Assembly: GCA_011033025.1 (NCBI GenBank)
Contig: WFMF01000035.1
Coordinates: forward strand, 682,001 to 746,000
DNA length: 64,000 nucleotides
Source of the DNA: Beroe forskalii
Lineage: Eukaryota > Ctenophora > Nuda > Beroida > Beroidae
Direction of reading: 5' to 3'
The notes beneath the pieces are model-generated. The model was given only the letters and a program-made list of their open reading frames with translations. It did not search any database and was not told the origin of the DNA. The position numbers and the translations under genes were made by a program. The first letter of the stretch is position 1. Each line of letters starts with the position of its first letter. This document shows positions 1,901-61,000 of this stretch, piece after piece.

Positions 1901-1902
1901 GT

Positions 1903-6634: not shown

Positions 6635-7055
6635 CTCTCTCAGCACTCCGTAGATCTGTACGTTGGGTGTATCCAGCAGCGTGTAACTCTGTCCTGGCAC
6701 AATATCACCCAGCAAACACACATCATAACGCCCAACCCTGACTTTAAACGGCACCTTCACTTCACTCCCCACTGTCTTCTTAGTCAGTCTCAGAGGAGCA
6801 GGATCCCGGTTTCTGCCTCTGTCTCGGGATCTAGGATAGTCCATAGCACCCTCCCTAGAATAGTCCCTCGCACAGTCCCTGGTGTTACAATCCCTGACCT
6901 GGTTCTCGCCACACTCCCCTTCTCACTACACTCCCTGCCTCGTGTCTGAGTGCCACCTCCGCAAGCAGCTGAGCACTCACTCCACGTGCTCCAGGAATCA
7001 GTGGAAACCTTCCTCCTGCACACGGGTTTCAGGGAGCAGGACCTGGACTCGTGAC
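6635..7055 (-). CDS. Exon: TSP1 repeat 4 and C-terminal tail
   Basis: Starts in phase 1 at CAG|GT and first finishes TSP1 repeat 3 (SCSLKPVC). It then encodes TSP1 repeat 4 ([20 protein letters not shown]) and a basic tail ending [17 protein letters not shown] before a good donor (GAG|GTGAGG). Reading through that donor instead gives the stop VRNK-stop. The end of repeat 4 ([15 protein letters not shown]) sits one frame away from its start. A single base missing in the GGGG run near 6938 would explain it; exon length (421) is one short of the phase expectation. WxxW motifs are typical C-mannosylation sites. Confidence 0.75.
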
Positions 7056-25000: not shown

Positions 25001-28000
25001 TTTAATGACTGGCATTGTCAAAAGTTTTCTTGTTAAGCTAGAAGGCTTAATCTGGGATAATGAAATATTGATAAAACAAAGTTCTTATCAAAAGTTCTTT
25101 TGTACTATAAAGTACAAAACTCAAAAGTAGTTACCTCTATTGGAGTGAATCCTCTGACTCGTGTGTTGATTAATACATCTTCACCAATGTACTCCACAAC
25201 TGACTTTGGAACAGGATCAAAGAATGGAGGTCTCAGTTCATCTTGTCTATAAACAATGTTACTTGTTGTCGTTGCACCACTGTGATCATCACCAACACCC
25301 AGTATAATGTAGCCTTCATCCACATGAGGGTTAGGCAAGGAAATGTCTATTTCCCAAGTTGATGTTATTTGTCCATCATCACCTTTTTCCTCAAAATCCA
25401 ATGATTTTTTGTGAGTGATGAAACTGGTAAGATCTTTAAATTGTCCCTTTGAAGAGCTTCCAAGGGATAGTGTGATATCATTTGGGTTGGCTGCACTTGT
25501 AGAAATTGTTATACTCATCTCTAAATCTTGCTCTTGTGTTAGGTAGATGAAACTGGGCAAAGGCTCCAGAATTATCAGGTCTGCAGGGGATTTGAATTTT
25601 CAATCAGATGGCTAAATGTAAAATTACAACATGTGATAATTGTTGACCACTATGCATAATAGTCTGTAAACCTTGGCCATCGAATGAGTTATGAGACTAA
25701 CAAAATCCCTAGATACATAGCATAACTTGATTAAAATATCATTTCTTATATACTTACCAATAGGGTCTGGTGTCTCTACTTCTATCACTCTTGTTTCACT
25801 TCCAGCATTATTTGATATCTCAATCATGTAAGTGCCCTCATCAAATTGATCTAAATCTGGAATGCTGAGACTACCATTAGAGTGAACTGTGAATTTGTCA
25901 TCAGTATCAAGTTCTGTGTATTCATTGTCATCTGGGTTCAGCTTATACCAGTGTACCTGTAGTAATAGACAATTAAGGTTTGATTAAACGAAATGAATTA
26001 AAAATGGGAGAAAATAAGTTAGCTATAATGACTGAGCCCATTAAGAAGAATAAGAAGCAAACCTCTATTGGAAGGGACCCTTGTACTTGAGTATTAATTA
26101 GAACATCATCACCATGAACAGCTTTAACAGATTCTGGCTCAGGATTGAAGAATGGATGTATCCCTTCTCCATAAACAAGACGAGTTGTTGTGATGGCTCC
26201 ACTATAGGTGTCACCAATACTCAAAATAAGGTGCCCTGAATCGGTCAAAAAATTATCAGTTGATAAAGCTAAATTTATCATCCAAATTCTTCCCATCTTT
26301 TCATCATATCCTTTAACTTCCTCCTCTGTAAAGGTTGCTTCTACAATGGCATCAGTGATATCCTTATAGTATCCACTAAATGAATGACCCAGAGATATTG
26401 TGAAGTCGTTTTCACTAGCTACACTGGCATTAACTTTGATGTTTGGATAAAGATCATATCCCCATTGGAAGTAGATTTGTTCAGGAAGTGGTTTGATGAT
26501 AGTCAAATCTGAGGAAAAAGCAATATAGCTATCAAAGTATCAAGTGGCATTCAAAAACATTTTAAATTTTCAAATGGAGGATGATATTATTGTGGGCAAT
26601 TTTGAGAGTTAACCAACAAAATGGAAAAGAATAAATTCAAAACTTACTTATCCTATGCATCACATGCACATCTATCTCTTCTGTCAACATGCCTACATCA
26701 TTAGAGACCTCTACTCTATATTTTCCTTCATCATCTTCCTCTGTGTCTCGAATACTAAGGCTACCATTAGGGTGAATAGTAAACTTGTCATCATTATTTA
26801 TTTCAGTGAAGTCCAAGGAGTTTGGCGTCAAGCTGAACCAGCGTACCTGGGATGATAATGACTGGAAATATAACATTCTAACATTGCAGTGATTCACAGG
26901 GATGAATTTCAGAATGTCAGGTTATCAACTTAGAACATAATCTCACAATTACAAAGCAAATTGTGGAAAAAAAAACTTTACTATTGCTAGGAAAAAGAAT
27001 TAGAAATACAGTTACTTACGACGAGAGGAGGGTATCCCCTTGCTGTCATGTTAACCAGTGCATCCTCGTCAGTGAATGCTATCACATCTCGGGGGGCAGG
27101 ATCTAGGTATGGCATTCCTTCAGGACCATCTGGAGTAACTATAATATGCGTTGAAGTGGTATCAACACTGTGAGTATCTCGGACTTCCAGAGTTAGGTTA
27201 CCAGAGGACTGAGAGTAAGGGAAAGGTAGATTAATGTCCATTTTCCACGTCTTTTCTCCAGTTTTGTTTTTATCTTCAGTATTTGTAACCTCAGTTGTTT
27301 TGTAGGAGAGGTAAGTTGTAAGATCTTGTAAGATAGTATCATCAACAGAATGTGTCACAGACAGTTTCAACTCTTCTCCATTAGTTACACTGGCATTGAC
27401 AATAATGCTCATGTCTAGGTCCTCTCCAGGTGCCACAATGATTTCCTCTGGTAGTGCCTCAATGATCAGCACATCTGAAAGAGAAAATAATGCATGTAGG
27501 CATACAGATTTTCTCAAAATCCAGGAAAATATATTGAAATATCAAATATTATAGCAACCAAAAATGTAAAAATGGAACATGCAGCTGGTTCTGGTAGGTG
27601 GATGTAATGTTATATAGACAGAATTTCAGCACAGTGAATATATCCTAACCTGTGTGATCTTTAACTCTAATATCTACATCCATGGCAGCCTCTCCAACAT
27701 TATTTGATATCTTTACAAAATAAATTCCATCATCCTCCTCAACTGCATCATAGATAATGAGACTTCCATTAGAAAGGATGTCAAACTTTATATCATCATC
27801 CTCAATGTCCTTGTTCTCAAAAATGCCCACTGATTTCGACCAACTAACCTGAGTTTCATTTGGATGTAGTAATTGTTTCGTTATTGATTAATCCATTTAA
27901 ATAAAACCAAGGTACCTAGATCTCTAGATGAATCCAACATAGAAAGAAAGGGATGAAAAATTGATTTATAAAAATAAAATCTATAAAAAATCTATTCTTA

Positions 28001-31000
28001 CCACTAAAGGATAGGATCCCACAGCTTTGGTACTGATAAAGACATCTTGGTGTGGATAAAATTCAACTGATATAGGAGCAGGATCGAAGTAGGGCCCCCT
28101 GCCTCCCTCAGGTCTAACAATCAGTTGACTCATGGTTTCATCACTACTGAAGCCATCACTCACTACCAGTGTAATGTTTCCTGAAGCCTGAGAATGTGGG
28201 AAGGGGAGTGTCACTTCAATGTCCCATATTTTACTGATAGTTTCTTCCTCTTCCTCATCACCATGCTCTTCAGTGATTTCATACCACATGTTCTCAGTCA
28301 TATCCTTGTCGATTTCTTGAGAAGTATGCACCAAAGATAAGGACAGGTCTTCTTTTGTGAGAACACTTGCATTTACTTTGATGCTCAGGCTCAAAGAATT
28401 CAGAGGAGTTATAAAGATCTCTCTTGGAAGGGGCTTCACGATGTTTAATGCTGCAAATATGAAAATGATCAAGAAAAAGCTTGGTTTTGTTTTTATCATG
28501 AAATCAGAAGAATAGCTAAGTATGATAAGACAAGGGGCAATAAAGACAATTGGATAGGTATGGCTGAACCAAAGTCAAATAAACAAATAATTTCAATAGA
28601 CCTCTCCTTTGTTTCACTAGAACTTCCATTTTCTCAGAAGCAGTACCAGCAGCATTTGTAGCTACTACCCAGTAATTGCCCTTGTCGACTAGATCAGCAT
28701 CCAAAATACTCAAACTGCCATTGGAGTGAATGGTATGTCTAGAATCACTAGTTATTGGCTTAAAGCCAAACAATTTAGGGTCCAATACATACCATTTTAC
28801 CTGAAACATAAACACAAATTATACATTTGGATATTACCTTGACAAAAACGTAACGAAAAAAACTATTCATTACTTCATTATAGTAGTCTCACGACAAGTT
28901 TTGACCGATTTAAAGGGTAGTACTATATGCGTAGAGTCGTGTTCTACACGCGTTTTATATCATGTGTCTGTTGTATTTACAACTTTAAATGTAAATCTAT
29001 GCGACCTTTGTATTTTGGTGTTACAAAAATGTGCATATCTCCGAGGTTTTTTGAGCAAACTTGATGAAACTTTCAGGATATTTAGAGCTAGATATAAGCA
29101 ACATCTCAGTGAAGTTTTGATTCATTTTTGAGCCCCAGAAGCGGAGTTATGACCGAAAAGCCACTTATTAAGCGGTAACTTAAAAACAAAACACCAGTTT
29201 ATTTGTCATATCTCAATTTTTGGAGGTCAAAAATGTTAGCTACTCCAGGATTATATTGGTCATATCTTGCCCGTAATATCCTGAAAATTTGATCAAAATT
29301 GCCCAAAAAACGGCTGAGTTATGCGCTTTTTTGTTATGTGCAAACAAGCAATTTGCTTATTACCATATAAGGTAATGTGTGCTTGTTGTGTATAGGGTGT
29401 GTCTTCTGTACACCGTTCGACTACTATAGTGCTTTAGAGGCTCAAACTCACCGCAGAAATATGATTTAGAGCACTACCATTTTACCTCGAAAATTATTTA
29501 AATGTCTCAGCCATTGTCGACATTTAAATATTATATAGAGCCTTGCCTGCATAAAAACTCTATATTGTCTGCGTGTTCGTCTTACGCCTCTAAAGTACAT
29601 AGTATATCATCAACATTAAGCAAAAATTTGTTTTTTAATAAGGAAGAATTTAATTTTTGGTGTAATTTGAGCAAAAAATATAAATATAAAATAAATGAAT
29701 TCTACCGTCAGAGGACTAGATCCTTTAGCTTCAGTGTTAAGCATGCCACTTTGTCCAGTTAATAATGTAATTGAATTGGGTGCAGGATCAAAGTAGGGAG
29801 CACCATTTTTAGGCGAAGCAATAATCAGTTGGGTGGTGGTGATATCACCAGATCTGCCATCTCCAACACTCAATGACAGATCTCCTGACGCTTGAGAGTG
29901 GGGGTGAGGCAGGATCATATCTATTCTCCACAACCAGGAAGCATCATCCCCTTCTGACTCTTCATAAATCTTATAGACAAGATATTGAGTGATGTCTTCG
30001 TATATACCCTTAGAAGAGTGTCCAAGGGACAAAATGAAGTCATCCTCACTAGAAATAGTAGCATTTACTATGACGCTCATGTTCAAGTCATGAGATGGAG
30101 CCAGTACAATTTCTTTGGGCAGGGGTTTGACAATCATAAGATCTGAGAAAATAAGTTCCATTAATTGATATGATTGAAAAGAAATTGCAATTGTATACTG
30201 CGACCGTACAGTGAAATGCAACAATGAACAATCATCTATTATTTGAGATTAACTGAACTGAACAGATTGTGGGTAATAACTAGAAATATAAATACCTGTG
30301 TAGGGTATCAATTTAAGACTGATTTCTTTAGAGGTAGAACCAGCAGAGTTGGACAGTTCCACTCTATAAGTTCCTTCATCATATTCATCAACATGTGAAA
30401 TGCTGAGGCTACCATTAGGGTGAACAGTGTATCTATAGTCTGTTTTGATTTCAAAATAACCATTGATATCATAGGTTATCTTCATCCAACTTATCTGAAA
30501 ATAATGGATAGTTTAGATAATAAACATGGTGAAGTACCAATGATTTCATTCGGCTTCACTATTGATAAAATTGAACTGCCCAATGATCAGAAGACAAAGC
30601 AACATTTATGATTTACCTCCATAGGGAAGGATCCTTTAGCTTGAGTATCTATGAACACATCATATCCAGGGATACTCCATACATCTTCTGGCTCAGGATC
30701 AAAGAATGGTTTTATGCCCTTGCCAATAACAAGACGGGTAGTGGTAATGCCTCCACTGTAACTGTCACCAATACTCAAAACAAGATGTCCTAAATCTCCA
30801 GGGAATGAATATGACAGTGTCATTTCTATCCTCCACAATTGACCATCACCCTGTAATAGATCATTCATATCTTCTTCCTCAGACACATGATATGTAAGAT
30901 ACTCTGTGATATCGACATAATAACCTTTCAGTGAGTGGCCCAGAGATAAGGTTAAATCACTCTCACTGGTAATGCTTGCAAAAACTGTTACATCCATGTT

Positions 31001-34000
31001 CACACTTTCTCCATGCAGCACTTTAGTTTCTCTTGGAAGAGGTTTCACAATAACAAAAGCTGAAAGAGAAACAGGTTTAAACTTATAAATACTTGAGCTA
31101 TACAAGAGTTAATACTTAAATAGTGGCTAAGTCCAATGCCAATTCATAGTTGAAACAAAGAAAAGGGAATAATTACTACGTGCATCATGTGACCTCTTGA
31201 TTAACCAAAGAAAAAAAATCGAATTTTTCTCACCAGTTCGCTGAATTACTTCTACTTCAATATCTTCAGATGCTGAACCAACATTATTTGAAACCTCAAC
31301 CCTGTATGTAGCTTCATCAGCTTCTTCTGTGTCACGAATACTCAGACTGCCATTGGAGTAGATGGTAAACTTGTCATCATTCACTATTTCAGTGGTATCA
31401 AGAGAATCAGGGTCCAATTTAAACCAGCGAACCTAAGATAGTTGTCATATCAATAGCTGATATTCTAATATTGAATACAATGCCTTATGAGACATATTTA
31501 TGTAATTATGTAGAACGAAATATTTTGAAATATTACAAGAAATTATTATAAAGTATAAAAGTATAAAGTATCATGAAAAATACCCTTATTTTGACACCAA
31601 TGAAATTGCAATATGATGTAATCACCATAACTAATTAGACTTATTACTCACAGTAATTGGCTCCAAGCCCTTCACACCTGTTCCAATATACAAATCTTCA
31701 CCAAGGTAACTTCTGGCAGAACTTGGTACAGGGTCAAAGAAGGGTGCTCCATCATTTCCATCAAGTGATATAATTACATGAGTTGAGGTTACATCACTAC
31801 TATGATCATCTCTTACAGTAAGAGTAAGGTCTCCTGAGGCTTGGCAATGTGGGTTTGGAAGAGTCATGTTAATTAGCCATTCTCCAGCACGTTCCTTGCT
31901 ACTCAGGATGGTATCAAGTTCATCTGAATGTTTGTAGGTAAGATATTTTGTGAGATCTTTATGTACATTCTTTGAAGAGAACTCAAGAGACAACTTAATG
32001 TCTGATTTGCTATTTATTGTGGCAGAAACAATGATACTCATCTTAAGATCTTCTCCTGGTTCCAGATTGATTTCCTCTGGCAGGGGCTGTACAATAACCA
32101 GATCTGAAATTCAATTTAATAACATATTTGATATATTGATAGTGTTTAGTGTCCACCTGTTCAAAAAATTGCTGACCATCAAACAGTTTTAAAATTTTAC
32201 AATCTATTATCAAATATAAATATAAACATAGACTGAAATTTCGTTGCACACCTCTTGGAACGACTTTCAGCTCAATTTCAACAGAGGTCATTCCATTCCC
32301 ATTGGATAGCTCAACTATGTAAGTTCCTTCATCTTCTTTCTGTACATCAGGAATACTGAGGCTACCATTAGCATAGATATTTATCTCAGAGTCATTCAAA
32401 ATCTGTTTCTCACCGGACAGTGGATTTAATTTGAACCAACGAATCTGAAAATTGTAAAAGTATTGAATAATGTAAGTTGTCTAGTTCCTTAAAACATTAG
32501 TACTTTAATAAGATAATTCAAAACAATGAGAAAAATTGATGCATGGAAGACTAGGTCCTTTCGAAGTGTACCAATCCATACTTACATATAAAGGACTTGG
32601 TCCCTTGGCTTCAGTATTGATGAAGACATCTTCCCCAGGGTGAGCTTCAACAGATTTTGGTACTGGATCAAAGAATGGAGAGAGATCATCTTCTGGTTGG
32701 ATTATAAGTTCTGTAGTTGTGATAGCCCCACTGCGGCTGTCTCCAACACTCAGTGTCAGATCTCCAGAAGCTTGGGAGAATGGGTAGGGTAGTTCCAGGT
32801 CTATATTCCAGATCTTACCTGAACCTTCTACATTGTTCATTTGCTCAGTTGCTTCAGAAATATTGAAGGTAATATAATCATTGAGGTCTTCATAGACTCC
32901 TCTTAATGAGCGACCAAGTGACAGAGTAATGTCTTCTGTGCTTGTAATGGAAGCATTGACTGCAATACTCAGATGGAGATCTTTCTCAGGAATCAGGTAT
33001 GTTTTTACAGGAAGAGGCTTGACAATAACCAGATCTGAAAGGTTTAATTTGTAAGTTTGTAATCGATTTTATAACTTTTGTGCCCCCATTGTACTTTATG
33101 CCCTCAGTATGTCCTCGGTGACCAGTATGCCCGAGGTGTTGCCCTCAATGTGCAGATTTTCCCAAAGTCCAAGTACCTATGCCAGAGAATTTTCTTAATA
33201 TTGACCAGAGCCAATGTCATCTGGATTTTTTTTATTGGTTAACTCATAAAACTTTGCATGCCAGTACAGTAATTTGACACAACTTAAAAAATGCTTCTTC
33301 TGGAATTTTGAATCTTGGTAAGCTTCAAAAATCTGATTTTTCCTTTCAAATGGCCAAAATGGATTTTGGTCCATGAATGACCAAAAACCCAAAAATATGA
33401 CTTAAAACTGCACTTTCCCATGTGGAAGCATTGCAGAGAGTCCACTCAAACCAAATCATCACACATAACGATCAGTGAAACTTCAACTAAAAAAGATTCA
33501 AAGATCTTGAATTTTGATTAAAAAAGGCAATACCTATTCTCTGAATGGTGGAAACCTTTACATCTTCTGATACAGTTCCAACATCGTTGGAAACCACAAC
33601 CACATAATTACCATCATGCTGCACATTGTGAATACTCAGACTACCATTGTTGAGAGTAGTGTACTTTCCATCATCGGAAATTTCAGTAAAGCCTGGAGAG
33701 TCTGTGTTCATCATGTACCATTTCACCTGAAAGTGCATGATCAGCTCAATGATGGGCAAAATTTTTTTGGTAATGTCAAAGGAGAAAATCTGTGAAAAGT
33801 CCAAAGCTATAAGAAATTTTTCAAAAAGAAAATCAGTTTACTGACCATTAAAGGTGTTGACCCCTTTGCTTTTGTATCAATCAAAACATTATCTCCAATA
33901 AAAGCGGTGACAGATTTTGGCACTGGATCAAAGAATGGAGCAACATTGTATCCATCTTCTCCAACAACTAGACGTGTAAATGTAATGTCACCATTATGAC

Positions 34001-37000
34001 TATCACCTACACTGAGAGTTATATCACCGGATGATTGAGAGTGAGGATAAGGAAGGAGCACATCTAATTTCCATGTAATGACATGATCATTCCTATCAAT
34101 TTTGGACATTTCATAAACTATATGTTCAGTGAGATCCTCATATATGCCTCTGGAGGAATGACCAAGAGATATTGTGAAGTCCTTTTCCATTGATGTGACA
34201 GTGGCATTAAACAAGATGCTCATGTTCAAATCATTTCTTGGTATCAGAACTGTTTCTTCGGGAAGATGCTTGATGATTATCAGATCTGTTGAGAGCACTT
34301 CAAGTTTAATTTCCTCTGTAGCAGCTCCATGAGGATTAGATATTGCGACTTTATAAACACCGCTGTCAGCTGTTTCTGAATCAGAGATACCAAGACTACC
34401 ATTGGAGTGTAGAGTGTACTTAGCATCATCCATTATTTCAGTGTACTCTGATGTTTCAGTGTCCTGTTTGTACCACTGTACCTGGAGAAAAATCCATAAT
34501 CAGTTGTGGTAATTGGTATACAAAGTTTTAATTATGGTCCTACATAAACACAATAAACACAAAAACCCTGATGCTCTTGAACAATAGAGACCATATAAAA
34601 TGTTTTCAATTATTATTTAAAAAGTTACCTTGATGGGAGCTGATCCCTTTGCCCCAGCATCAATGAGCACCTTTTGGCCATGATAACTAATTACATCCTC
34701 TGGTTTTGGGTCAAAGTAAGGTTTGATTTCTTCATCCCCTCCTATGAATAGCTTAGTTGTTGTGATTCCACCACTGTATTCATCACCAATACTCAGAATT
34801 AGATGTCCTAAATCATCAGTGAATGGATAAGACACGATAAATTTTATTAGCCAGGTACTTCCATCATCTGTTCGATCATCATTATCATCTTCTTCAGATA
34901 TTGTGTAAGTGAAATAGTCTGTAATGTCCTTATAAGATCCTTTCAGGGAGTGTCCCAAAGAGAGGGTCAGGTCATCTTCACTAGTGATTGCTGCATAGAC
35001 TGTCACTTCAAGATCCAAATCTTTCCCATGATAAACATGAGTTTGTCTTGGAAGGGGCTTGACAATTACAAGATCTGAAAATATAGATATGAATAGTCTT
35101 TCAGACAAGCAATGTACTAAACATTGACTCTAAAAGCAGGAGCCAGAAACGACACAAACCACCAAACTCAACTGAACCCAACAGATTTGGCCTTTCAACG
35201 ACCTAAAACATCCTTAACCAACCCAAAACAACCCAAAAAATTCGAAACCAGCCTGAACCCAGACTTAAATGAGCTAAAAGTTAACTAAAATGTGGAACCA
35301 CCCGTAACAAGCAAAATCAATCAAATCTAGCCATCTTCAGAAGTGATGAAATTTCTTGAAGTGTCCTCATAACACTAGTTTATAAAATGTCTTTAAATTC
35401 TTACCAATTCGCTGTATCACTTCAATTTCAATGTCCACCTTGGCAGATCCAGCATTATTGGCAACCTCGACTCTGTAGCTGCCTTCATCTTCTTCCATTG
35501 TGTCTAAGATACTAAGACTACCATTTGAATGAATGGTAAACTTATCATCATCCACAATTTCTATAAATTCAGAAGAATATGGGTCCAACTTGAACCAACG
35601 AACCTGAAGAAGGGTAATAATGTGTCAGTTTTTGTGATATGATGAAGCATCCATATCATGCCATCTGTATCAAGATGAAAAAGTGGACCTGATGTTTTTT
35701 GAGTTGAATTGTTCATTGATTACTTTTACAGTTTTCATTCAACCCAAATATGAAAACTTACAATGAGTGGAGTTGATCCTTTAACACTGGTTTGGATGAA
35801 CAGGTCATCACCATGGAAGGATTTTACAGAGCTTGGGACTGGGTCAAAGAATGGAGCTTCATCATTTGCTTCTTTTGCAATTATCAGATGTGTTCTTGTT
35901 GAATCACTGCTGTGGCTATCCCTGACAACCAGAGTTAGATTTCCTGATGCCTGGGAGTGCTGATAGGGCACTCTTAGGTTTACCTCCCATATCCTTGCAT
36001 TATCTTTGCTGTATTGGTTTTCAGCAGTAAATTCTAGGAGGTTGAATTCAAGATATTTGGTAAGATCTTTCTTTATTTCATTAGATGAGTATTGTAAAGA
36101 CAAAGTGATATCATCTTCAAGTGTTGAAGTAGCAGTTGATACAATCACTTCCAAATTCAGATCTTCCTCTGGTGCTATGATGATCTCTTCAGGAAGTTGC
36201 TTCTCAATAACCAAAGCTGAAAAATTTCAGTTTCACCTGTCAGCATCATGAAGCCAGTCAAATTATTTTAGTGTTAAGCAATGAAATGCACAAAATGATG
36301 AAAATAATCAAATTTTTATTGATATGGCTGTCAGTGCATTGAAATGATATGAAACAACTAACCTATATCCAACACTGTAACTTCAATATCAACTGAGGTT
36401 GATCCATCACCATTGGACAAGACTACCCTGTAAGTGCCTTCATTATCAGCATCAATATCTGGGATAGCTAGACTTCCATTAGGATAAACTTTGTAATCAG
36501 AACTGTCCACTATTTCTTGGACTTCCTCAGGTTCAGATTCCACTCTATACCAACGGATCTAGATTGAAAAATTAATCAGCATGGAAAAACCTTAAAATTC
36601 TGCTTAGTGCTATCAACATTGTAGTATTTCTGATTTCATAAAACAAAGACTACAAGTCAAATATATTCAATATTCTGGAAAACTTGACTGAATCAATAAA
36701 TATATCACTTACAGTGAATGGAGGTGAGCCCCCTGGAGTAGCATCAATAATCACATCTTCCCCTTGATGAGCTTCAACAGATTTTGGAACTGGATCAAAG
36801 AATGGAAGAAGGTCATCTTCTTGCTGGATGATAAGCTTGGTAGTTGTGATAGCCCCACTATGGCTGTCACCAACACTCAGTGTTAGGTCCCCAGAAGCTT
36901 GAGAGAATGGGTAAGGTAGTTCCAGGTCGATATTCCAGATCTTACCTGAACCTTCTACATTGTTAAATTGCTCAGTTGCTTCAGAAATATTGAAGGTAAT

Positions 37001-49000: not shown

Positions 49001-52000
49001 ACAGTCACATCTGAGGGAACAGGATCGAAATATGGTCTATCAGCTTTTCCAATAATTAGTCGTGTGGTAGTTATAGCCCCACTGTAACTATCACCAATAC
49101 TCAAAATAAGATGTCCCAGCTCTTTTGATGAAAATACATTAACAAGTCTCATTTCTATCTTCCATAGTTCTCCATCCTCATCATAATAATCATGATCTGG
49201 ATCCCCTTCAGATACTTTGTAGATGAGATGTTCTGTGATATCCTCATAGATTCCTCTCAAGGAGTGTCCCAAGGACAGCTTTAGATCATCCTCACTGGTT
49301 ATACTAGCAGAAATGGTGACTGTCATATTCACATCCTTCAAGGGAGTTAGATATGTTTCACGAGGAAGAGGCTTCACTATGACCAGAGCTGAAATGATTA
49401 TGATCATGTTATTTTGATAGTTTATGGATGAAAACTCAAAAGGTCTTTTAAGAACATTCATCAAGAAAGAAATTACAAAGGATTGAAAATTTTCAAAATA
49501 TGGCATAGAAATAACAAAGGATTGATAAATTTCAAAATATGACATAGTCTCATAATGACTTACATGTTTGGTGTAAGAGTTCAACTTCTACTTCTTTTGA
49601 TGTGGTTCCAGCTTCATTAGATACAACGACCCTGTATGTGCCTTCATCATCTTTTCCCGTATCACCAATGCTTAGGCTAGCATTTGGGTAAATGGTGAAC
49701 TTGGTATTATTTACTATTTCAACAAATGCTGGAGAATCAGGGTCAAGTTTATACCAGCGAACCTGTGGAAAATACCTATGTGAAACAGGGAAGGTTGGAT
49801 AGAGGCAAAGTATTGAGGATGTAGGAAATAAAAAGCTTAGGAACAGGAAACAGCAACATGTCTACATAGAAGTGTAACTAAGTAACTAACTGAGATATTC
49901 AACTTTCTGGAAAAATTTAGTTTACTATTACACTCACAGTCACTGGAGTTAAACCCTTGACACCGGCTTCAATGAACAAATCTTCACCAAGGTAACTTCT
50001 TGCTGAACTAGGTGCAGGATCGAAGAATGGTGCACCATTGTTGTCCTTGGGTGTAATCACAATCCTTGTTGAAGTCTCACCACTGCTGTGCTGATCTTCA
50101 ACAATCAAATAAAGGTCTCCTGAGGCTTGGCAATGTGGGTGTGGTAGTTTCATATTTATTCTCCACATCCTCACATTACTCTCACGATCCATTGCATCCC
50201 TAGTTTCTTCTGAAATTTTGTATACAAGATGCTTAGAGAGGTCTTGATGGTGCTGGCCCTTTCTGGAAGAGCGGCTTAGAGATAGTGAGATGTCATCCTG
50301 GTGCGGTATTGAAGTCGAAATTAAGATTGTCATGTTCAAATCCTCTTGAGGTCTGAGGGTTATTTCTCCTGGCAGGGGCTCCACAATAACTAATTCTGTA
50401 AAGGGTTCAAGTATTCAGTCACGTAAATGAAAAAATTATTCAAGTTTTGTGAATGAATGGAATTATATAAATTGTAGTATACAAGAAATAAATTTTCACT
50501 ATTAATGTTCAGATTGCAGATGCCAGCAAACTCAAAAATTTTACATTTGCTAACACCTACTCACCTATTTGTTCAATAACATCAACTTCAATCTGAACAG
50601 AAGATTTTCCATCTCTATCAGACAGCTCTACCACATAGATACCCTCATTTTCCTTCTGTATATCAGCTATACTTAAACTACCATTAGTGTGGATGGTGTA
50701 CACAGGGTCATCAGAAATTTCTTTTTTCTTGCCAGATTCTGGCTCTAATTTGTACCAGCGGATCTGTAAAGGTGTTATGAAAATATAGCAATATCGAGAA
50801 TAATCTAGTACAGTAGGGACTCAATTCAATAGTCAGTTTAATTTTCCGAATTTTGTGGGATAATTTTATACCTAATAAATTCAAGAACCCCTTGCAATGC
50901 CTTCCAATACATACTTTGGATGGACTTGAAGCCACTGCTTCAGCATTGATCAGCACATCATCACCAGGATGAGCTTTGACAGAAGTTGGAGCTGGATCAA
51001 AGAATGGTCCAACTGTAGCATCATCTTCTCCTCTCTCTATAACAAGTCGTGTAGAGGTTATATCACCACTGTGACTATCTCCAACACTAAGGGTTAGGTA
51101 TCCTGATGCTTGAGAGTAGGGATGAGGTAATGATATTTCAATTATCCAGTCCTTCCCAACATCATCATCTTCTTTCTCATCACCTTCAACTTCAGTGATG
51201 TTGTAGGTGATTTGCTGTGTTAGATCTGTGTAGACACCTTTTGAAGAACGTCCTAAAGAAATGATGACATCGTCTCCACTTGCTACACTGGCAGATATGC
51301 TAATGTTCAAGTTTAGACTATGTCCAGGAGACAGTTGTGTTTCATCAGGTAGGGGCTTTGTTATCACCAAATCTGAGATTGCATCATTATCAATTTTTTA
51401 CAGAATTTCTATGGACATAAAAAGACTTTTATTTGACAAGTTTATAGATTTTAGACCCATTGCACATTGCATTAAAATTCATTTCGCCTATGTTTGTATG
51501 AATTATTGATGATAATTGATCATTTGAAAACTCTGGAATGCCATAAACCTGTTCTTTGCCTCACACGTATTCCAAATTCAAATGATACACTTCCATAATC
51601 ATTTGTGAGTTGGATTAAATATGGTGCATGATCTTCTTTCTGGATATCAAAAATACTACAACTTCCATTTTGGTGTATGAAAAACTCAGGGCTACTTTCT
51701 TTTTCAAAATACTTATTGTTTCTGTATCTGTACTTGTACAATTTAACCTGAATGATAGGCAGAATATTAAGTACATGGAGACTGGTACAAAGCTTACTTT
51801 GAAAGAATTGATTTAAATTTCATAGATAATTACTGGAAGGAACCAAGCTTGAAGTGATGGGAAATTGCATAATGCATATTTATCATTAATTGGACTTGAA
51901 ACCCAATACTCACTGATATGGGACCAGATCCACCCACTCCAGTATTTATAAAGATATCATCACCAGTGTAAGCTTCATAAAGATCCTTTGGATAAGGATC

Positions 52001-55000
52001 AAAGTATGGTGGGTTTTTATTTCCCTCCTGTTTGATAGTAAGTTGGGTAGTTGTAATATCACCACTGTGATCATCACCAACACTCAGGATGAAGTCTCCA
52101 GATGATTGGGAGTGAGGATGTGGCAGGACAAAGCTTATGTTCCAGAATCTACCATCAAGGTCTTTGTCATCTAGTTCAAGTATGGTGAATGAAGTGTGTT
52201 CAGTAACATCATGATAGGTTCCTTTTGAAGAGTGACCAAATGTCAGGATTAGATCTTCTGGACCAAATATGCCTGCCTTTATTGTAATGTTTCCAATCAA
52301 GTCATTCTCAGGGCGAAGGAATGTTTCATGTGGTAGTGGCTCAACGATAACTAAATCTGAAGAAATGATATTGTAAAATAGGTATTGCAGCCAAAATCAT
52401 GTTTTTCATTCTAACATGAAATTGTTATAAGCACCTTAATATAGCAAGTTGATATTGCATGAAAATATTAATTAGAAAATTGCATCCAGGCAAATTGTTA
52501 AAAAATCCTTGAAAGAAACTAATCAAACTTCTGAATGATTTCAACTTCCAGTTCAGCAGAAGACATGCCACCCTTATTTGCTAGTACAACCCGATATTTT
52601 CCTTCATCATCCTTTTCTGTATCTCGAATAACCAAGCTACCATTGGGGAAAATTTTGAACCTTCCATCAGTTTCGATTTGCTTATACCAATCATTAGTCT
52701 CGTCATGTTTAAACCAGTTGACCTGCGTTGTACAGAGTTCAAGGAAAGGTGTTGGTATAAAAGTGGGTAAAAAGGTGGGAGTAAAGCAAAACATTTTGTG
52801 GTTGAAGTAAAGCAAGACATTTTGTGGTTGTAGTGAAGAAATAAAGCAAACTATTTCATTTCAATTGAATCTTTTTTTTACACACCTCAATGGGATGTGA
52901 CCCATTGGCATGGATATTGATGAAAAGATCCTCGTTTGTTTTGCCAGTAATATCTTCAGGTTCTGGATCAAAGAATGGTTTCTCAACGTCTCCAGAAACA
53001 AGACGAGTAGTGGTGATTGCACCACTGTGTTGGTCTCCAATACTCAGGATAAGGTGGCCAGGATTCTTAGCGAAAGTGTGAGTAAGATGCATATTGACTT
53101 GCCAAGTTTGATTTCCTGATGCCATAGTTTCATTTTCTTTGAATAACTCAAAGGAAAGATGGTCAGTGATATCTGAATATTCGCCTTTGTTAGATTGACC
53201 TATTGAGATGGTGATATCATTTTCATTTCTGATATTAGCAGAAATAGATATTGTCAATTCTAAAGGTTTATTGGGAGACCAATATGTTTCTTCTGGTAGA
53301 GGCTTTATGATGACCAAAGCTGAAAATGAATTGTTAGCAAAAAGCATGAACAAATTTTAATTCCCTGACTTGGACTATCATGAACAAAGTACTTCCAAAT
53401 TATCAAACTTCTAAATTTGACCCAAATAAATGCTATTCTACCAATGTTGAGATATAATGGATCAAAATACTGAAATATGAACTCACGTATGCGTTCTATA
53501 ACCGAGACTATAACAATTTCCGTAGTACTTCCATATCTATTAGAAACTTCAACCAGGTATTTTCCCTCATCCTCCTTCTCAATATTTTGGACAGTCAAAC
53601 TACCATTGGAAGAAAGCAAATACTTCCCATTATCGAAAACTACCACATCCTCTTCATCATCCAAATTCAACTTGTGATTCTTCAATTCATTCCAGTATGT
53701 GGTGGCCTTCTTATACCATCGCACCTGTTAAATGTTGATGTGTGGAATTAGAAATGGATGCAATACGATTTAAAATACACCTAAATTGCTTTCATTGCAG
53801 ACATAAAATAACCTATAATTTGATTAAAAATGGTTATAATAAGAGAAAATGCATATTAGCATAGCTAAATTTCGTTGGAACCATGTACTTACAGTCATTG
53901 GATAAAATCCTCTTGCTTGGCAGTCAAATATCACAGTTTGGCCCGGGAATACAATCACTGATTCTGGTCTGGGTAGGAAGAATGGAACACTCCCCTCTCT
54001 GTCCACATTGAGACGAGATTTTGTTACATCACTGCTGTGTTGATTTGCAACTCTCAATTCTAGGTCACCAGATATCTGGGAGTATGGATATGGGAGTGTT
54101 ACTTCAACAGACCAAGTTTGGGTTTCTGAGTCTTCTTCATCCAGGTCCATATTTTCCACTTGAGTTAGTGTGTAGTCCAGGTATTCGGATAAATTTTCAT
54201 GGATTCCTTCTGAGAAACGATCAAGATATACAACAATGTCATCGACAGAATTCATCCCAGTTTTTATTTTTATGCTCATGCTGAGATTTTCTTCTCCTTC
54301 CAGATATAATAGTTTGGGAAGAGGCTTTGTGATTTCTGAAATTAATATATTATAGTGTTTAGATAGAATTATCATTCATCAAGGATAAATCAAATTCCTC
54401 ACATAATTTACAGAGTCAATAAGGTTCTAGTTGATAGTGAAATCTATGATTGATGGCAATCAGTGATCATATATCAGAAGTTTTTTCTTACCTATCTTAT
54501 TGATAACCACTACATCGATTGCCAATTCAGTATATCCATCATCATTGTAGACAATCAGAACATAAGTGCCATTATCTGCAGGCTCAATGTCCTGTATACT
54601 GAGACTTGCATTAGGATGGACAGTGTATTTACCATCAGTAAGAATGCCTTCCACGTACCCTTCAGGTAAAACTTTGAACCATTCAATCTGAGGGAACAAT
54701 TGATTGAAATCCTAACCTCTATATTAATAAATGTGTGGAACCTTTGAAAATTGGAGTAATATGGGTAATGGGTATTCATTTCTATGCACAATGCTACCTT
54801 ACAAGACAAAATAACATGGGACAATAATTCCGGGGATCGAAATTTTGGGGGTTCGAAAATATGGGGATTTTTAGCAAAAATCCCCAAATTTCGTACCCCA
54901 AATTAAATAAAAGGATTTTCGCCTTTCTTTCAAATTCAAAAACATGGGGTAACTTTTGGAAATAAATCAGAACTTCAGGAAGGCCAATATCACTGAAGTG

Positions 55001-58000
55001 ATCGAAGCAGTAGAATTTCCAGTACAAGATCCCTTTTATCGAGTCGAGTGTAGAAGGTCTTATTTGGAATTACTGCTTTTAAGATATTTTCAACTCTTCT
55101 GCACTGATATACTTATTGAAATTTGTCAGGGAATTCCATATTTTATGCACTGTTTTTTTAATCACAAACTCGCAATTAATTAATTTGGGGGAAATAATTT
55201 TGGGGACCGAAATTTTGGGGGTACGAAAATATGGGGATTTTTTCGAAAAATCCCCAAATTTCGTACCTTTTAAATATGTCTCGTAAGGTATCTAATTTTA
55301 ATGACACCATGAGAAGTGGAAAGTTTGGTGCAATATCGAGACAAATCGTATGAAATCATATGAATAAAACATACTTGTATTGGAGCATCTCCCTTGGCTG
55401 CAGCTTTGATCAGTACATCTTCACCAGGATAAACAAGTACAGATCTTGGCGCTGGATCAAAGAACGGCCCCACATCATCTCCATCCTCCTGTCTGATAAC
55501 AAGGTTAGTTGAAGTCATGACATCATCACTATATCCATCACCAACATGCAGAGTCAGGTTTCCAGATTCTTGAGAGTGTGGATAGGGTAAGGTGAGATCT
55601 ATTCTCCATTTTGTAGCACCATCATCAATGTCTTCAGAATCATCCACTTCCTCTATTTCAGAAATTCTATATTCCAGATACTGGGTTAGATCTCTGGTAG
55701 TTCCATCAGAAGAACGATCCAAAGACAGTGTGATTTCATCGGTGCTGACAACACTGGCACTTATTGTTATGCTAAGGCTGAGATCTATATAGGGAGCAAG
55801 ATAATGGTTGGGAGCAAGATATGTGTTCTGAGGAAGAGGATCCACAATAGCCAATGCTGAAAAATGAAAATATCATTGAAATGAAAATATTGATAACAGA
55901 CAAAATACCTATAAACAACTAGGATTTTATCAGTGAATGGTCTCAAGAGCAGTTAGTTTCTAAAACGAAGAACAGTGCACGTAAAGATTTCAGCATAAAA
56001 ATTGGCATGAAAAATCAGCAAATTTTTTGGCATAGTGACACAACCAAAGTACCTGATCTTTTTTGGACATCTACTTCTAACATTGCTGTTGCTTCTCCGA
56101 ATTCATTGGATATCAGTGCCACATACATTCCTTTCTCATCATATCCTATGTCAAGGATACTCAGGCTGCCATTAGGATAAACTCGGTAAGTTTCATCATC
56201 GGTTATTTTCTGATACAGATAGGAACTTGGGTCTACTTTTAGCCAAGACACCTGAAAGTGGTATCTGTTGGTAGACGGTAGTTGGAAGGATTCGGGATGG
56301 TGCCATTATTTATTATCTAATGACATCAAATTATGGCAGGAACGATGAAAAGTTTCTAAAATTTCTGATCATAAAGTAAATTCTTAGCTAGTAAGTTGCC
56401 AACCTCAATAGGAGAGGAGCCCCTAACTGCAGTTGATATCAGAACATTTTCTCCAGGGTAGGTCCTTACATCCAGGGGAACGGGATCAAAGAAGGGTGCA
56501 CCCTCTTCCCCTTCCTCACTGATCACTACACGTGTTGATGTAATATCACCACTGTGGCCATCTCCAACATTCAATGTTAGGTCTCCTGTTGCTTGGGAGT
56601 AGGGGTAGGGGAGAGTCGCGTTTATTTGCCATAAGTCGGTGTAATCTTCACCACTGTCTTCTTCAGTTGAAGCATCAACTTTGTAGATAGTAACCCTCAG
56701 ATATTTGGTGGTATCCTCGTACACACCCTTAGAAGATCGCCCAAGAGATACAGTGATGTTGTCATCACTTGGTGCACTGGTTTTTACCGTGATATTCATG
56801 GTCAGGTCTTCTCCAGGGTTCAGGGATGTGGTGTCAGGGAGGGGTGTGACAATCTCTAGATCTGAGAGTGAAATGGCAAATGATAAATAAGTATCCTGTG
56901 AACTGAAATCACACTTGAAATTGAGAAAAAAAAAGGAGTATGAGTTTGAGCAATGTCTAGACACATTCTGAGTTTCTTACTTCAATAATCTGAATATAAA
57001 CTGTAAAAACAAACCAATCAGAATATTTTCGTTCTCAGATTACATAAATTTCTAGATACTCACCAAATTGGACAATAAGTTCAATCTCCACAGAACTAGA
57101 TCCAGCGCTATTGGAAACCTCGATCTTGTACCTTCCCTCATCCTCCCTCTGTGCATCAAGAATACTGAGACTGCCGTTAGGGAAAACAGTGAACTTGTCA
57201 TCAGATGTTATAGTCTCATATCTTCCAGTCTCTTCTTTGTACCAAGTAATCTGGAGTTTAAAAATAATCATCCATAACAGATTTATTAGAAAAGACTCAG
57301 ATAAACTGATAAACCATGGAAGATCATGTTGTGGTAATTATTGGTATGTCATTTGAACACAAGTGATACACATCACGTCATGATGTGTACAGATGGATCG
57401 ATCAATTAAAATTATCTATCCTTCACCAAATCAGACAAATCCATCTGCACACAATTTGGTTGAAAACAGGATTTAGTCAAATTTAACTTAGCTATAATTT
57501 GCAAAATTCAAAACCTACCTTGATTGGAGCAGATCCCTTCACAGACACGTCAATAAGAACATTCTCCCCGGGGTAGAATGGAATGGAATCTGGCAATGGG
57601 CCAATAGTTGGTTCCTCCACCACATCCACTCCTCCAACAACAAGTTGAGTGGTTGTTATTGCACCACTGTGAGTGTCACCAATGCTCAGAATAAGGTGTC
57701 CCAGATCAGAGAATGGATGTGAAACCACAACCTCGATAGTCCATGCTTGCTTGGTGAAATCTACATCAAAAACTCGAGATATTTCGTAGGTGAAATGCTC
57801 GCTGGGAATTCCTTCGACTATTCCCATGAGTGAATGTTCCAGTGACAAGGTGAAGTCATCTTCATCTGTCGCAAAACCAGTGCTAACTTTCACACCCAAC
57901 AATAGATCTTTTCCAAGCGTCAGGTTCGTTAGTTTTGGAAGTGGTTTGATGATTTCCAAGTCTGAAATAAATTCTTCATTAGAAAATTATTCAATACTAT

Positions 58001-61000
58001 ACTTTAAGATTATTTGCAGTAAATTCAAAACCGCTACTTGCTCATTGAACGATTAATGAATAACTTCAATGCTGAATACAATTAGGTAATCTAAGGAAAA
58101 TACCCTGGTACATTCACAAACTCGCTAAGATGATGAAAAGAAAATGAGAAGTGATTTACCTGAACGTTCAACCACCACAACCTGTATTATTTCTCCAGCA
58201 ACATTACCAAACCGATCCTTTATTTCAATCATGTAATCCCCACTATCCTCAATTCTTGCTTTAGGAATAGTAAGACTACCATTGGTATGTATATCATACT
58301 TCGAACGGTCAGTTAATTTAACATAACCCCGTTGTCTGTCCCATTTATACCACTCTTCCTGAAGAGATGGGAGATTTAAAAAATGTAATTTGTAGATGGG
58401 ATAGGTGTCTTCCTTCAAATTTCAAAACACAAAATAACCATTGGATAATAATGATATTACTTACAGCGAGCAGCTCGTTTCCCTTTACTTCAGTGTTGAA
58501 AACAACATCTTCACCAACATAAACAGTGACATAATCTGGCACCAAAGGATCAAGGAAAGGACCATATCTTCCCCATCCATTTCTAATAACAAGACGAGTG
58601 CTGGTTTCATCGCTGCTGTGTTTGTCCTTGACAATCAGTGACAAGTCTCCTGACGCTTGGGAGAAGGGGAGAGGCAGTACAATACCTACTTTCCAAAGTC
58701 TGATACCATTGACTTCATCAAGATCTTTTAGGATAATGTCATGGCTGATGTGTTTTGTCAAATCCTGCTTGATTCCTCTGGCAGTGTGTATCAGGGTGAG
58801 CGAGATATCGTCTTCTTCTTCAGTGGAGATGTCAGTGGTAATTGAGGTGTTCAGGGTGAGGAATTCGCCAGGTGAGAGTTGTGTTACTTTAGGCAATGGT
58901 CTCTCAATGAGTAGATCTGCAAAAGTGTTTTAAAATGACAGGATTGGTTAGAAAATGACAGAATTGTTTACAAAATGACAGAACAGCCTACAAAATGACA
59001 GGAGTCAGGATGTTCAATTGTTTTATACAAGATTTAGGAAATAGGAATTCCTTATGAATTGTCTGTGCTTTATCTGCTATCGCGATTCAAGTCAGTAAGA
59101 TAGTAAACAGCAACAATTCAAAACCTGCCAGTTTTTCAACCACATTGACTTGGATTTCTACAGTAGAATTCCCATCTCTGTTTGCTATCTCCAGTCGGTA
59201 AGATCCTCCATCTTCCTCCTGGATGTCCGAAATGCTCAAACTCCCATTAGCATGAATCTTGTACTTCTCATCGGCAACAACTTCAGAGTACTCAGGGGAT
59301 CCAGGAGTCTTCATATACCACCGAATCTGGAAAAAGTGTTCTTCATTGAAATTTCAATGCCATGACAGAACTTCGAAGATGAATTATCCATAAAAAATGT
59401 TCAAAATCGAGTAAAATCTCAAGCACCATTTCAAAAAAAAATCTTACAAAACTCACTGTAATAGGACCAGGTCCTTGAGTGTCGGTGCTTATCAAGACAT
59501 CCTCCCCAGGATGCACTTCAACAGATCGAGGAAGAGGATCCAGGAATGGACCTCGACCTTCCTGCTCAATAATGAGTTCAGTTGTGGAAATATCTCCACT
59601 GTAAGTATCTCCCACACTCAGCGTCAAGTCTCCGGATGCTTGGGAGAAGGGGTGGGGAAGAGTCAGGTTCAAAGTCCAATACTTCACATCCGAATCCATG
59701 CCATCATCTGGACTTATCTCAGTGAGTTTGTAAATGATATGTTCTGTGAGATCTTCGTATATGCCCCTAGAAGAGTGACCAAGAGATACTACGATGTCTT
59801 CAGGACTTCTGATGCTAGCTGTCATGGTGATGCTGAGGTTTAGGTCTTTCCCTGGCTCCAGATAGGTTTTTCTGGGTAGCGGTTCAACGATGACTAAATC
59901 TGAAATAATAAAATTCAATTATACCAAGTGGGGCGTGTTATAATTTTGTTGGGTTATAGGCATTCCCGTACCATTGAACAAAAGATTCATCAAGGCATTA
60001 TGATCGAATTACTTACCAGTTCTCTCCGACACTTGAATTCTTGTGGAAGCTTCTACACGTCCGAAATCATTGAATATTTGCACTGTGTACCGGCCAGAGT
60101 GTTCCAATTCAGCATCAGAGATGATAACACTACCATTGGTGAAAACAGCCGTGAACTTCTCATAGGGCTTATTGAATCCCAAGATACTCTCATCATCTTT
60201 GTACCACACAACCTGGAAAGGTTTTTTATATTTCCAACAGTTGGTTGTCTTCCCTTGTTTGGTGTTTAATGTTTGTTATTAAAAACAGTCCTGAGGCTTT
60301 ATTAACACATCACTTTAAAGAAGTTCACTGCATCCAGCTGAAAAAAAGAAGCCCAATTATAACTATGAAAGTGTATAATATCTAATACTCAGAACTCACT
60401 GATATGGGCTCAGATCCTCCATATCCAACGTTTATAAAGATTTCATCACCAGTGTAAGCTTCATAAAGATCCTTTGGATAAGGATCAAAGTATGGTGCTC
60501 TCTCATCTCCATCCCGTCTGATAACAAGCTGAGTAGTTGTAATATCGCCACTGTGATCATCTCCAACACTCAGGATAAAGTCACCAGAAGACCGGGAATG
60601 AGAATACCTGGAAATTTAGAATTTAGAATATATAACTTGATGATAATATCTAATAATCAATATAGTTTGCCAACGATGACTATTGAAGCATGTACAAACT
60701 ATAAAAGATCCCATCACTGAGGAAAATATCGCCAGTTCCCCTAAGAAAATTTATCAGTTCTTACCTCGGCAGAGTCACGTTTATGACCCACACCACGCCA
60801 TCCTCCTGCCGTTCTCCCTTGGAAATATTATAGGAAATGAACTCTGTCACATCCTCGAACACTCCCTGAATAGAGTGTCCTAAGGATACGGTGATATCGT
60901 CTTCATTGCTTGCGGAGGACAGTACGGTTACATCAAGATGCAGGTCATCCCATTGATGTAGGAGGGTTGTTTCTTCCGGCAGTGGTGTCAGAATCACCAG

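Follow-up and report, generated by a model that had tools for sequence, protein, structure and literature searches.

How a protein-coding array comes to repeat in units of several distinct modules, always in the same order, is the question raised by a 64,000-nucleotide stretch of DNA from the ctenophore Beroe forskalii (assembly GCA_011033025.1, contig WFMF01000035.1, positions 682,001 to 746,000 of the forward strand), referred to below as the window. It lies on contig 414 of the 216-Mb, 1,134-contig assembly. A minus-strand gene seems to extend from beyond the window's right edge into its left part, and the middle of this gene is an array of 38 modules, 8,195 residues long as modelled (a few residues at the ends of the B exons are left out). 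The gene is treated here as exons in sequence that are presumed to belong to a single transcript. An earlier note on the window had read the array as a coding higher-order repeat in which four module subtypes recur in strict order. Taken together, our results make a joint explanation probable: a coding higher-order repeat formed by in-register block duplication, modified by later DNA exchange, with its types kept apart by purifying selection. Within this explanation, the in-register duplication of four-module blocks as the origin of modules 2 to 29 is well supported, the exchange step after duplication is proposed as likely, and the data suggest that exchange between young copies was exon-centred.

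Each module consists of two exons, A and B, and 38 copies of each were located, with the numbering of the earlier note retained (Table 1). Exon A (∼150 residues) encodes a complete all-beta domain (∼118 residues) plus the first third of an immunoglobulin (Ig) domain, and exon B (∼65 residues) encodes the remainder of that same Ig domain. A and B are thus exons and not the two separate domains that they had been taken for. The starts of B exons and ends of A exons were placed by searching for splice signals; as modelled, every A exon has a phase-0 donor and every B exon a phase-0 acceptor (38/38 each). A phase-1 acceptor for A lies within 12 bases in 37 of the 38 modules, a phase-1 donor for B within 15 bases in 35 (the exceptions are modules 9, 17, and 21), and no module contains a stop codon. 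This phase-1/phase-0/phase-1 pattern makes the module a symmetric unit, letting the array gain or lose complete modules without a frameshift. The module pitch is ∼1 kb, apart from a few long introns. The four-module pitch is 3.8 to 4.6 kb, except across large introns (10.1 to 10.3 kb for starts at modules 12 to 15 and 7.9 to 8.0 kb for starts at modules 28 to 31) and at the last step (5.9 kb). An extra intron splits the beta domain of A2 (60403-61003) and of A38 (10864-11693), unlike the other 36; these two were omitted from the structure alignment (36/38) and retained in trees and lag tests.

Likeness between modules was greatest at every fourth step. Over all 38 modules, mean identity of A at lags 1 to 8 was 0.428, 0.421, 0.417, 0.521, 0.407, 0.419, 0.417, and 0.468, with 0.461 at lag 12; for B it was 0.496 at lag 4 versus 0.40 to 0.41 at lags 1 to 3 and 5 to 7. 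None of 10,000 shuffles of module order reached the lag-4 excess for A, B, or A+B. The nearest relative fell in the same position class for 27 A, 22 B, and 25 A+B units of 38. Within modules 3 to 29, mean A identity at lag 4 was 0.569, and nearest relatives were of the same class in 23/27 (A), 19/27 (B), and 23/27 (A+B). In modules 30 to 38, period four was absent: shuffles were as high in 57% (A) and 81% (B) of cases. The recurrence of subtype signatures every four modules holds for modules 2 to 29. Self-BLAST gave bit sums of 6,211 at lag 4, 1,874 at lag 8, 1,343 at lag 12, 1,075 at lag 1, 944 at lag 3, and 463 at lag 2; these sums are uncorrected for the number of pairs, and matches touching 41.0 to 46.4 kb, the array ends, or no module were dropped. 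The six best matches between young module pairs account for 4,656 of the lag-4 bits, leaving 1,555.

The signal was retained when the youngest modules were set aside. In modules 2 to 29 without 16 to 19, the lag-4 excess was reached in 0 (A), 2 (B), and 0 (A+B) of 20,000 shuffles; without 15 to 19 and 23, the counts were 0, 23, and 0, and with only modules 3 to 14 and 24 to 29 kept, they were 0, 99, and 0. Four parts of the module carried the class signal separately (modules 2 to 29 without 15 to 19 and 23): of 5,000 shuffles, 3 reached it for the N-terminal part of the beta domain, 0 for the C-terminal part, where the signal is strongest, 50 for the Ig start, and 6 for the rest of the Ig. The outcome that the earlier note had set against its own proposal, a tree in which neighbouring modules are closest, was not obtained. 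Instead, the module tree groups positions, and without modules 16 to 19 a neighbour was the nearest relative in only 1/24 for each of A, B, and A+B, which disfavours growth from one neighbour to the next.

In the module tree, each position class has a supported clade (Table 1). Outliers are modules 2 and 10 of class 2, which pair apart; module 6 of the same class, which is unplaced; modules 4 and 8 of class 0, which fall nearby, unresolved; and module 1, which lies outside its class. When the modules were given five labels, with module 1 left out, the tree required 7 changes (minimum, 4; shuffled mean, 23.0), and none of 200 shuffles was as low. The A-exon tree recovered class 1 as a clade (96/92); classes 0, 2, and 3 were not single clades in it, yet were clustered, with 0, 4, and 0 of 500 shuffles as low.

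The motifs that had been named as subtype signatures follow these classes with substitutions. HSSD is present in five of the seven A exons said to carry it (A4, A8, A16, A20, and A24), while A12 reads HSSG and A28 reads HSVD; the motif also occurs in A33 and A38, and A27 has FSSD. GHLILSIGD was found in six of the seven exons A5, A9, A13, A17, A21, A25, and A29 (A25 reads GHLVLSIGD), with relatives in A18 and A31. GNYWVV is in B14, B18, and B26, and B22, for which it had also been listed, reads GNYVVV. The motifs of the so-called type E exons B3, B11, B15, B19, and B23 read VEIQV, VQIEV, VDIEV, VDIEV, and VEIEL, respectively, and VEIEL occurs in B5 as well. The four-step order applies to modules 2 to 29, where it is broken at module 27; module 1 stands outside its class, and modules 30 to 38 are aperiodic.

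Module identity at lag 4 was highest in the centre of the array: it was 0.78, 0.94, 0.95, 0.88, and 0.77 for pairs 15/19 to 19/23 and 0.34 to 0.58 elsewhere; low divergence between blocks, which in alpha satellites runs along the array, was thus confined to these pairs. The best DNA matches between modules 16 to 19 and 20 to 23 are 3,958 to 4,127 bases apart and 87 to 95% identical (78% for B18/B22). Exon pairs A16/A20, B16/B20, A17/A21, B17/B21, and A18/A22 are 0.945 to 0.960 identical, with nonsynonymous divergence (dN) of 0.02 to 0.03 versus synonymous divergence (dS) of 0.09 to 0.19 (dN/dS, about 0.13 to 0.32). The sixth pair, B18/B22, is only 0.774 identical, with a dS of 0.51. Introns A18-B18 and B18-A19 are 0.55 and 0.52 identical to their counterparts four modules on, the level of unrelated introns (mean, 0.48; maximum, 0.62; 30 pairs drawn at random from 12 of the gene's introns). 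Intron A16-B16 is close to its counterpart beside the exon and diverged in the middle, which differs from neighbouring synonymous sites (Fisher P = 2e-9, exon site numbers approximated). Because a single event would give equal age everywhere, and B18/B22 and some introns are too diverged, modules 16 to 19 are not a clean single copy. Growth by duplication of a ∼4-kb four-module block, as first proposed, remains the best reading of the array, although the near-identity of its young part does not come simply from one copied 4-kb block.

Exon A19 is a chimera of A23-like and A15-like parts. Its dS to A23 is 0.08 in the 5′ part and 0.68 thereafter, while its dS to A15 is 1.25 and then 0.15. Diagnostic sites are A23-type down to 36906 and A15-type from 36869; three sites dissent, of which 36965 and 36929 are A15-type before the switch and 36819 is A23-type after it. 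One recent unequal crossing-over within A15/A23-type exons would yield exactly this hybrid and would leave modules 16 to 19 as a clean 4-kb copy, whose introns would then have changed fast. The dS values of 16/20, 17/21, A18/A22, and A19/A23 in its 5′ part, each between 0.08 and 0.19, agree with such an event, as do intron B16-A17 and the 150-bp dispersed repeat that accounts for the length difference of intron A17-B17. Equal divergence is nevertheless expected after a single event, and the dS of B18/B22, introns A18-B18 and B18-A19, and the middle of A16-B16 (44/86) depart from it; we consider this explanation unlikely. A single crossing-over is not retained as the only explanation of A19, because the intron preceding this exon is only 0.52 identical to the one preceding A23. 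The 150-bp repeat (38578-38729) is absent from intron A21-B21; dozens of copies at 83 to 88% identity occur elsewhere, and on contig 66 some of them are about 540 bases apart.

Two fused exons, B17/A18 and B21/A22, are the only such fusions among the 37 B-A junctions; the introns at junctions 13/14 and 25/26 are about 177 and 150 nucleotides long. Homogenisation via spliced RNA copied back to DNA would explain both these lost introns, whose loss keeps the frame and the junction residues, and the matching of exons where parts of introns do not match. High identity nevertheless enters the introns (29/30 beside A16; 27/30 and then 119/134 in B16-A17), and because the patches include intron sequence, the template of exchange was DNA rather than spliced RNA; an RNA route is highly improbable. 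Near-identical tandem exons, such as those of the young copies, are also a classic site of misassembly, and a duplicated read path could in principle have produced the young copy. The copies differ by 4 to 6% in five exon pairs, by 23% in the sixth, and by far more in parts of the introns. Among the candidates scored across the 216-Mb assembly (40 of 432), the dispersed 150-bp repeat was the only match beyond the array. An assembly error is highly improbable.

Outside the young centre, most pairs are close to synonymous saturation. The median proportion of synonymous differences (ps) at lags divisible by four was 0.72 (A) and 0.75 (B), the same as the overall medians, with some same-class pairs less saturated (e.g., 7/11 and 12/24; ps, 0.56 to 0.61). 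Near saturation of synonymous sites indicates that the four types are old and kept by protein constraint. Codon identity was compared in 1,394 old exon pairs, with the six young module pairs (12 exon pairs) set aside. After correction, an excess was found only for A2/A10 (lag 8; 0.026), in which no single window passes (best, 0.60). The six strongest old pairs all lie at lags divisible by four, versus 312 of the 1,394 pairs overall, a comparison made post hoc. With one significant pair, widespread old conversion is disfavoured, and the data do not establish pervasive exchange. Old pairs gave exon-sized self-BLAST matches among the best 45 of the 252 listed.

Several observations weigh against block duplication followed by exchange. 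Within modules 3 to 15, nearest relatives are of the same class in only 5/13 (A), 4/13 (B), and 7/13 (A+B) cases, and the lag-4 excess is weaker there (shuffles, P = 0.0001 for A and 0.03 for B). Module 27 lies outside class 3, and a clade with 27 held in is borderline (approximately unbiased test [p-AU], 0.053); in the unconstrained tree, neither class 0 nor class 2 forms one clade, although constraining each to do so is not rejected (p-AU, 0.065 and 0.24, respectively). In the young centre, intron B16-A17 keeps an identity of 0.87 across 194 aligned bases, which is what a simple duplication would produce, and the identity of intron A17-B17 is 0.77 apart from the 150-bp repeat in copy 17. A single old exon pair with a codon-identity excess belongs on this side as well, and the old block duplications are read from protein similarity, because neither the introns nor the majority of synonymous sites are informative. 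The splice pattern, too, is a prediction from sequence.

Some of these points would suit an array without block duplication, in which modules were added singly and positional selection produced the four types, for instance within a structure whose pitch spans four modules. Synonymous sites of same-class pairs are no further from saturation than those of the remaining pairs, so protein constraint holds the types apart, and the nearest relatives in modules 3 to 15 are only partly of the same class. Neighbours, however, are very rarely nearest relatives (1/24), class clades are supported in whole-module trees, four parts of the module carry the class signal separately, and the fused exons recur four modules apart. 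Single addition is already contradicted for the young blocks, and for the array as a whole we judge it very unlikely.

Our preferred account is block duplication with later exchange. In the proposed sequence of events, a two-exon module bounded by phase-1 introns (the beta domain plus a cysteine-less I-set Ig) would first have diversified into four types. Four-module blocks would then have been duplicated in register several times to give modules 2 to 29, each event being inferred from the observed pattern; the central blocks would be the youngest or the most recently homogenised. The patchwork seen there would stem from exchange between modules four apart, by gene conversion or, less likely, by repeated crossing-over, with homogenised patches comprising exons plus tens of intron bases and other intron stretches drifting apart. 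Purifying selection, judged from dN and dS, would hold the four types distinct at the protein level, and a rod-shaped product may present a binding surface once in every four modules. A further, tentative possibility is that this is a living coding higher-order repeat, in which same-position modules still exchange DNA and exons held alike by function serve as the patches of homology. If true, the protein's four-type order would steer which copies recombine and so renew itself while introns drift. One junction can be narrowed to 38 bases within a conserved motif of the coding sequence, and the patches of putative exchange are readable at single-base level.

Table 1. Positions of the array, its classes, the young copies, and adjoining domains (window coordinates)
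Feature	Position	Strand	Basis or remarks
Array of 38 modules	8513..62019	-	Hidden Markov model search and splice-site check; runs from A1 (high-coordinate end) to B38 (8513)
Periodic core, modules 2-29, four position classes in order	25774..61003	-	Lag tests and trees
Modules 30-38, aperiodic	8513..25581	-	Period-4 excess -0.006 (A), -0.020 (B)
Class 1 example, exon A25	30617..31060	-	5, 9, 13, 17, 21, 25, 29 (GHLILSIGD type); one clade, module tree, 96/95
Class 3 example, module 23	32253..33035	-	3, 7, 11, 15, 19, 23; one clade, 95/98
Class 2 example, module 26	28600..30143	-	14, 18, 22, 26 (GNYWVV type); one clade, 97/97
Class 0 example, module 24	31232..32104	-	12, 16, 20, 24, 28 (HSSD type); one clade, 95/82
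Young copy 1, modules 16 to A18	37752..40261	-	Exons 94-96% identical to those of young copy 2
Young copy 2, modules 20 to A22	33793..36261	-	
Intron A16-B16 versus A20-B20	39603..39761	-	29/30 beside A16, middle 44/86, 21/30 beside B16
Exon A19 chimera, 5′ part A23-like, 3′ part A15-like	36713..37162	-	
Switch interval in A19	36869..36906	-	Diagnostic sites; falls on conserved motif common to A19, A23, and A15 proteins
B17 and A18 fused in single continuous reading frame	37805..38440	-	Usual B-A intron missing
B21 and A22 fused in single continuous reading frame	33846..34481	-	Four modules from other fusion
3′ half of A2	60394..60605	-	212 bases matching A10 at 85% of nucleotides; same class, lag 8
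TSP1 domains, C-terminal side of array	6793..8445	-	Three pieces
I-set Ig exon, N-terminal side of array	62526..62942	-	45% identical to one at 13179-13520

The array comprises 38 Ig domains that lack the canonical disulphide pair, each beside an all-beta domain lacking a Pfam match. Spliced A+B Ig domains matched I-set over nearly its full length in all four tried (E values of 1e-11 to 2e-14, passing the cutoff), and one matched a solved titin Ig (1.3e-10), while three A exons by themselves gave no I-set match. The core Trp is kept in 37/38 and the Tyr in 38/38, but Cys is found at the canonical B-strand position in 1/38 and at the F-strand position in 0/38, and no Ig domain of the array has the pair. 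Only four Cys residues occur in the 8,195-residue array (beta domains of modules 12 and 24; Ig domains of modules 8 and 10). N-glycosylation sequons number 112, versus a mean of 53 and a maximum of 73 in 500 shuffles, and one sequon (NGS or NAS) is common to all 38 Ig domains. The beta domain had no match in Pfam (36/38 A domains scanned; best E value, 0.019) or, in a profile search, among PDB sequences (best E value, 0.098). An AlphaFold2 model of it has nine strands (mean predicted local distance difference test score, 87.3). Three beta-domain queries returned 40, 38, and 40 matches, all inside the array (40, 39, and 40 candidates scored, so that remote copies elsewhere could escape). Rfam gave no match at the gathering threshold.

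Visual inspection revealed many TSP1-like and Ig-like frames upstream of the window; of the upstream pieces compared with Pfam cutoffs, three TSP1 and four Ig pass, two Ig fall below, and two have no match. From the TSP1 and Ig domains nearby and the glycosylation sites, the product is likely to be extracellular; most likely, it would form an extremely long rod outside the cell, built of about 76 small beta domains and flanked at either end by TSP1 and Ig domains. Two other kinds of frames occur in these flanks. About 20 to 40 kb to the right of the window (pieces L024 and L023), short frames with recurring CC-containing segments, propeller-like by eye, lie between Ig-like frames; two such pieces were scanned, with no Pfam match. 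At L010:5821-7546, plus-strand open frames with the signal-peptide-like sequence MSFRFALLLALLAGTAAL lie among minus-strand TSP1- and Ig-like frames and could represent a nested gene.

The long introns of the array contain repeats of several kinds. The 6.4-kb intron B15-A16 carries a dispersed element (40384-46400), in which 44722-46400 matches 40384-42100 inverted at 97% and 20-bp minisatellites are embedded; parts of it recur at many sites of the assembly, with 393 reported matches. In the 4.2-kb intron B31-A32, minus-strand open frames at 20142-21446 include one piece (20336-20671) with a match to the DDE_Tnp_4 transposase, which we take to be of Harbinger type. The long intron A38-B38 contains six tandem copies of a 342-bp unit (8755-10810; 95% matches). 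Beyond the array, at 1901-3623, a 9-bp tandem repeat (GTGAGTCAA, about 194 copies) shows strong G skew and long THLTHL-type frames on the minus strand.

Among the closest known systems is titin, whose C-zone unit comprises 11 domains. In the titin A-band, same-position domains are described as most alike, most clearly in the central C-zone repeats, and this is attributed to super-repeat duplication (PMC10665226). Titin is likewise an Ig-containing array with same-position likeness; it is, however, an intracellular muscle protein with FnIII partners, whereas the array here has a beta domain without a Pfam match and a four-module unit. Nebulin is reported to have grown by seven-domain block duplication with a recurring exon pattern, and internal repeat duplications are described as often mid-array (PMC1553488). 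The nebulin domain is different, with exon borders inside domains, and the array here would have gained four Ig-bearing modules at once; Ig repeats, in contrast, are most often duplicated one at a time according to the same survey (PMC1553488). This 2006 survey left undecided whether long domain arrays expand through intronic exchange or through exchange inside exons, because the segments involved had not been identified exactly (PMC1553488).

The earlier note had also regarded a probably extracellular nature as setting the array apart from other higher-order repeats; complement receptor 1 and spider MaSp2 are already extracellular or secreted examples. SCR domains, of which the former is built, are disulphide-bonded. 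The long homologous repeats of complement receptor 1 are described as extracellular, with seven SCR domains per unit and four units (PMC10605242). In its SCR domains, its four units, and its nature as a membrane receptor, it is unlike the array here. The NBPF 3mer higher-order repeat (Olduvai triplets) is reported as a two-exon monomer of three types in order, with a unit of about 4.8 kb (PMC9584774); it is not of Ig type, and its tandem arrays are reported only in human (PMC9584774). Ensemble repeats of Argiope MaSp2, a secreted silk gene, are described as alternating exon and intron types undergoing homogenisation, with introns averaging 97.6% similarity (PMC9779670). MaSp2 thus homogenises introns, and the array here shows the reverse, with exons alike and parts of introns not.

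Hemicentins form a family of long matrix proteins in which an Ig array is accompanied by TSP1, with VWA at the start and G2F and EGF at the end. A long Ig array with TSP1 nearby is found here as well, although the array itself is made of orphan-domain and Cys-less Ig modules; VWA, G2F, and EGF had no match in the pieces scanned, and the literature consulted on hemicentin and Cys-less Ig held no paper tied to this gene. Because coding higher-order repeats are established, neither the pattern nor the extracellular nature is new, and the array is a variant of a known theme. What is distinctive is its unit of four modules, each pairing an orphan beta domain with a Cys-less Ig, its patches of similar exons amid partly dissimilar introns, and a mapped junction that lies inside a coding motif.

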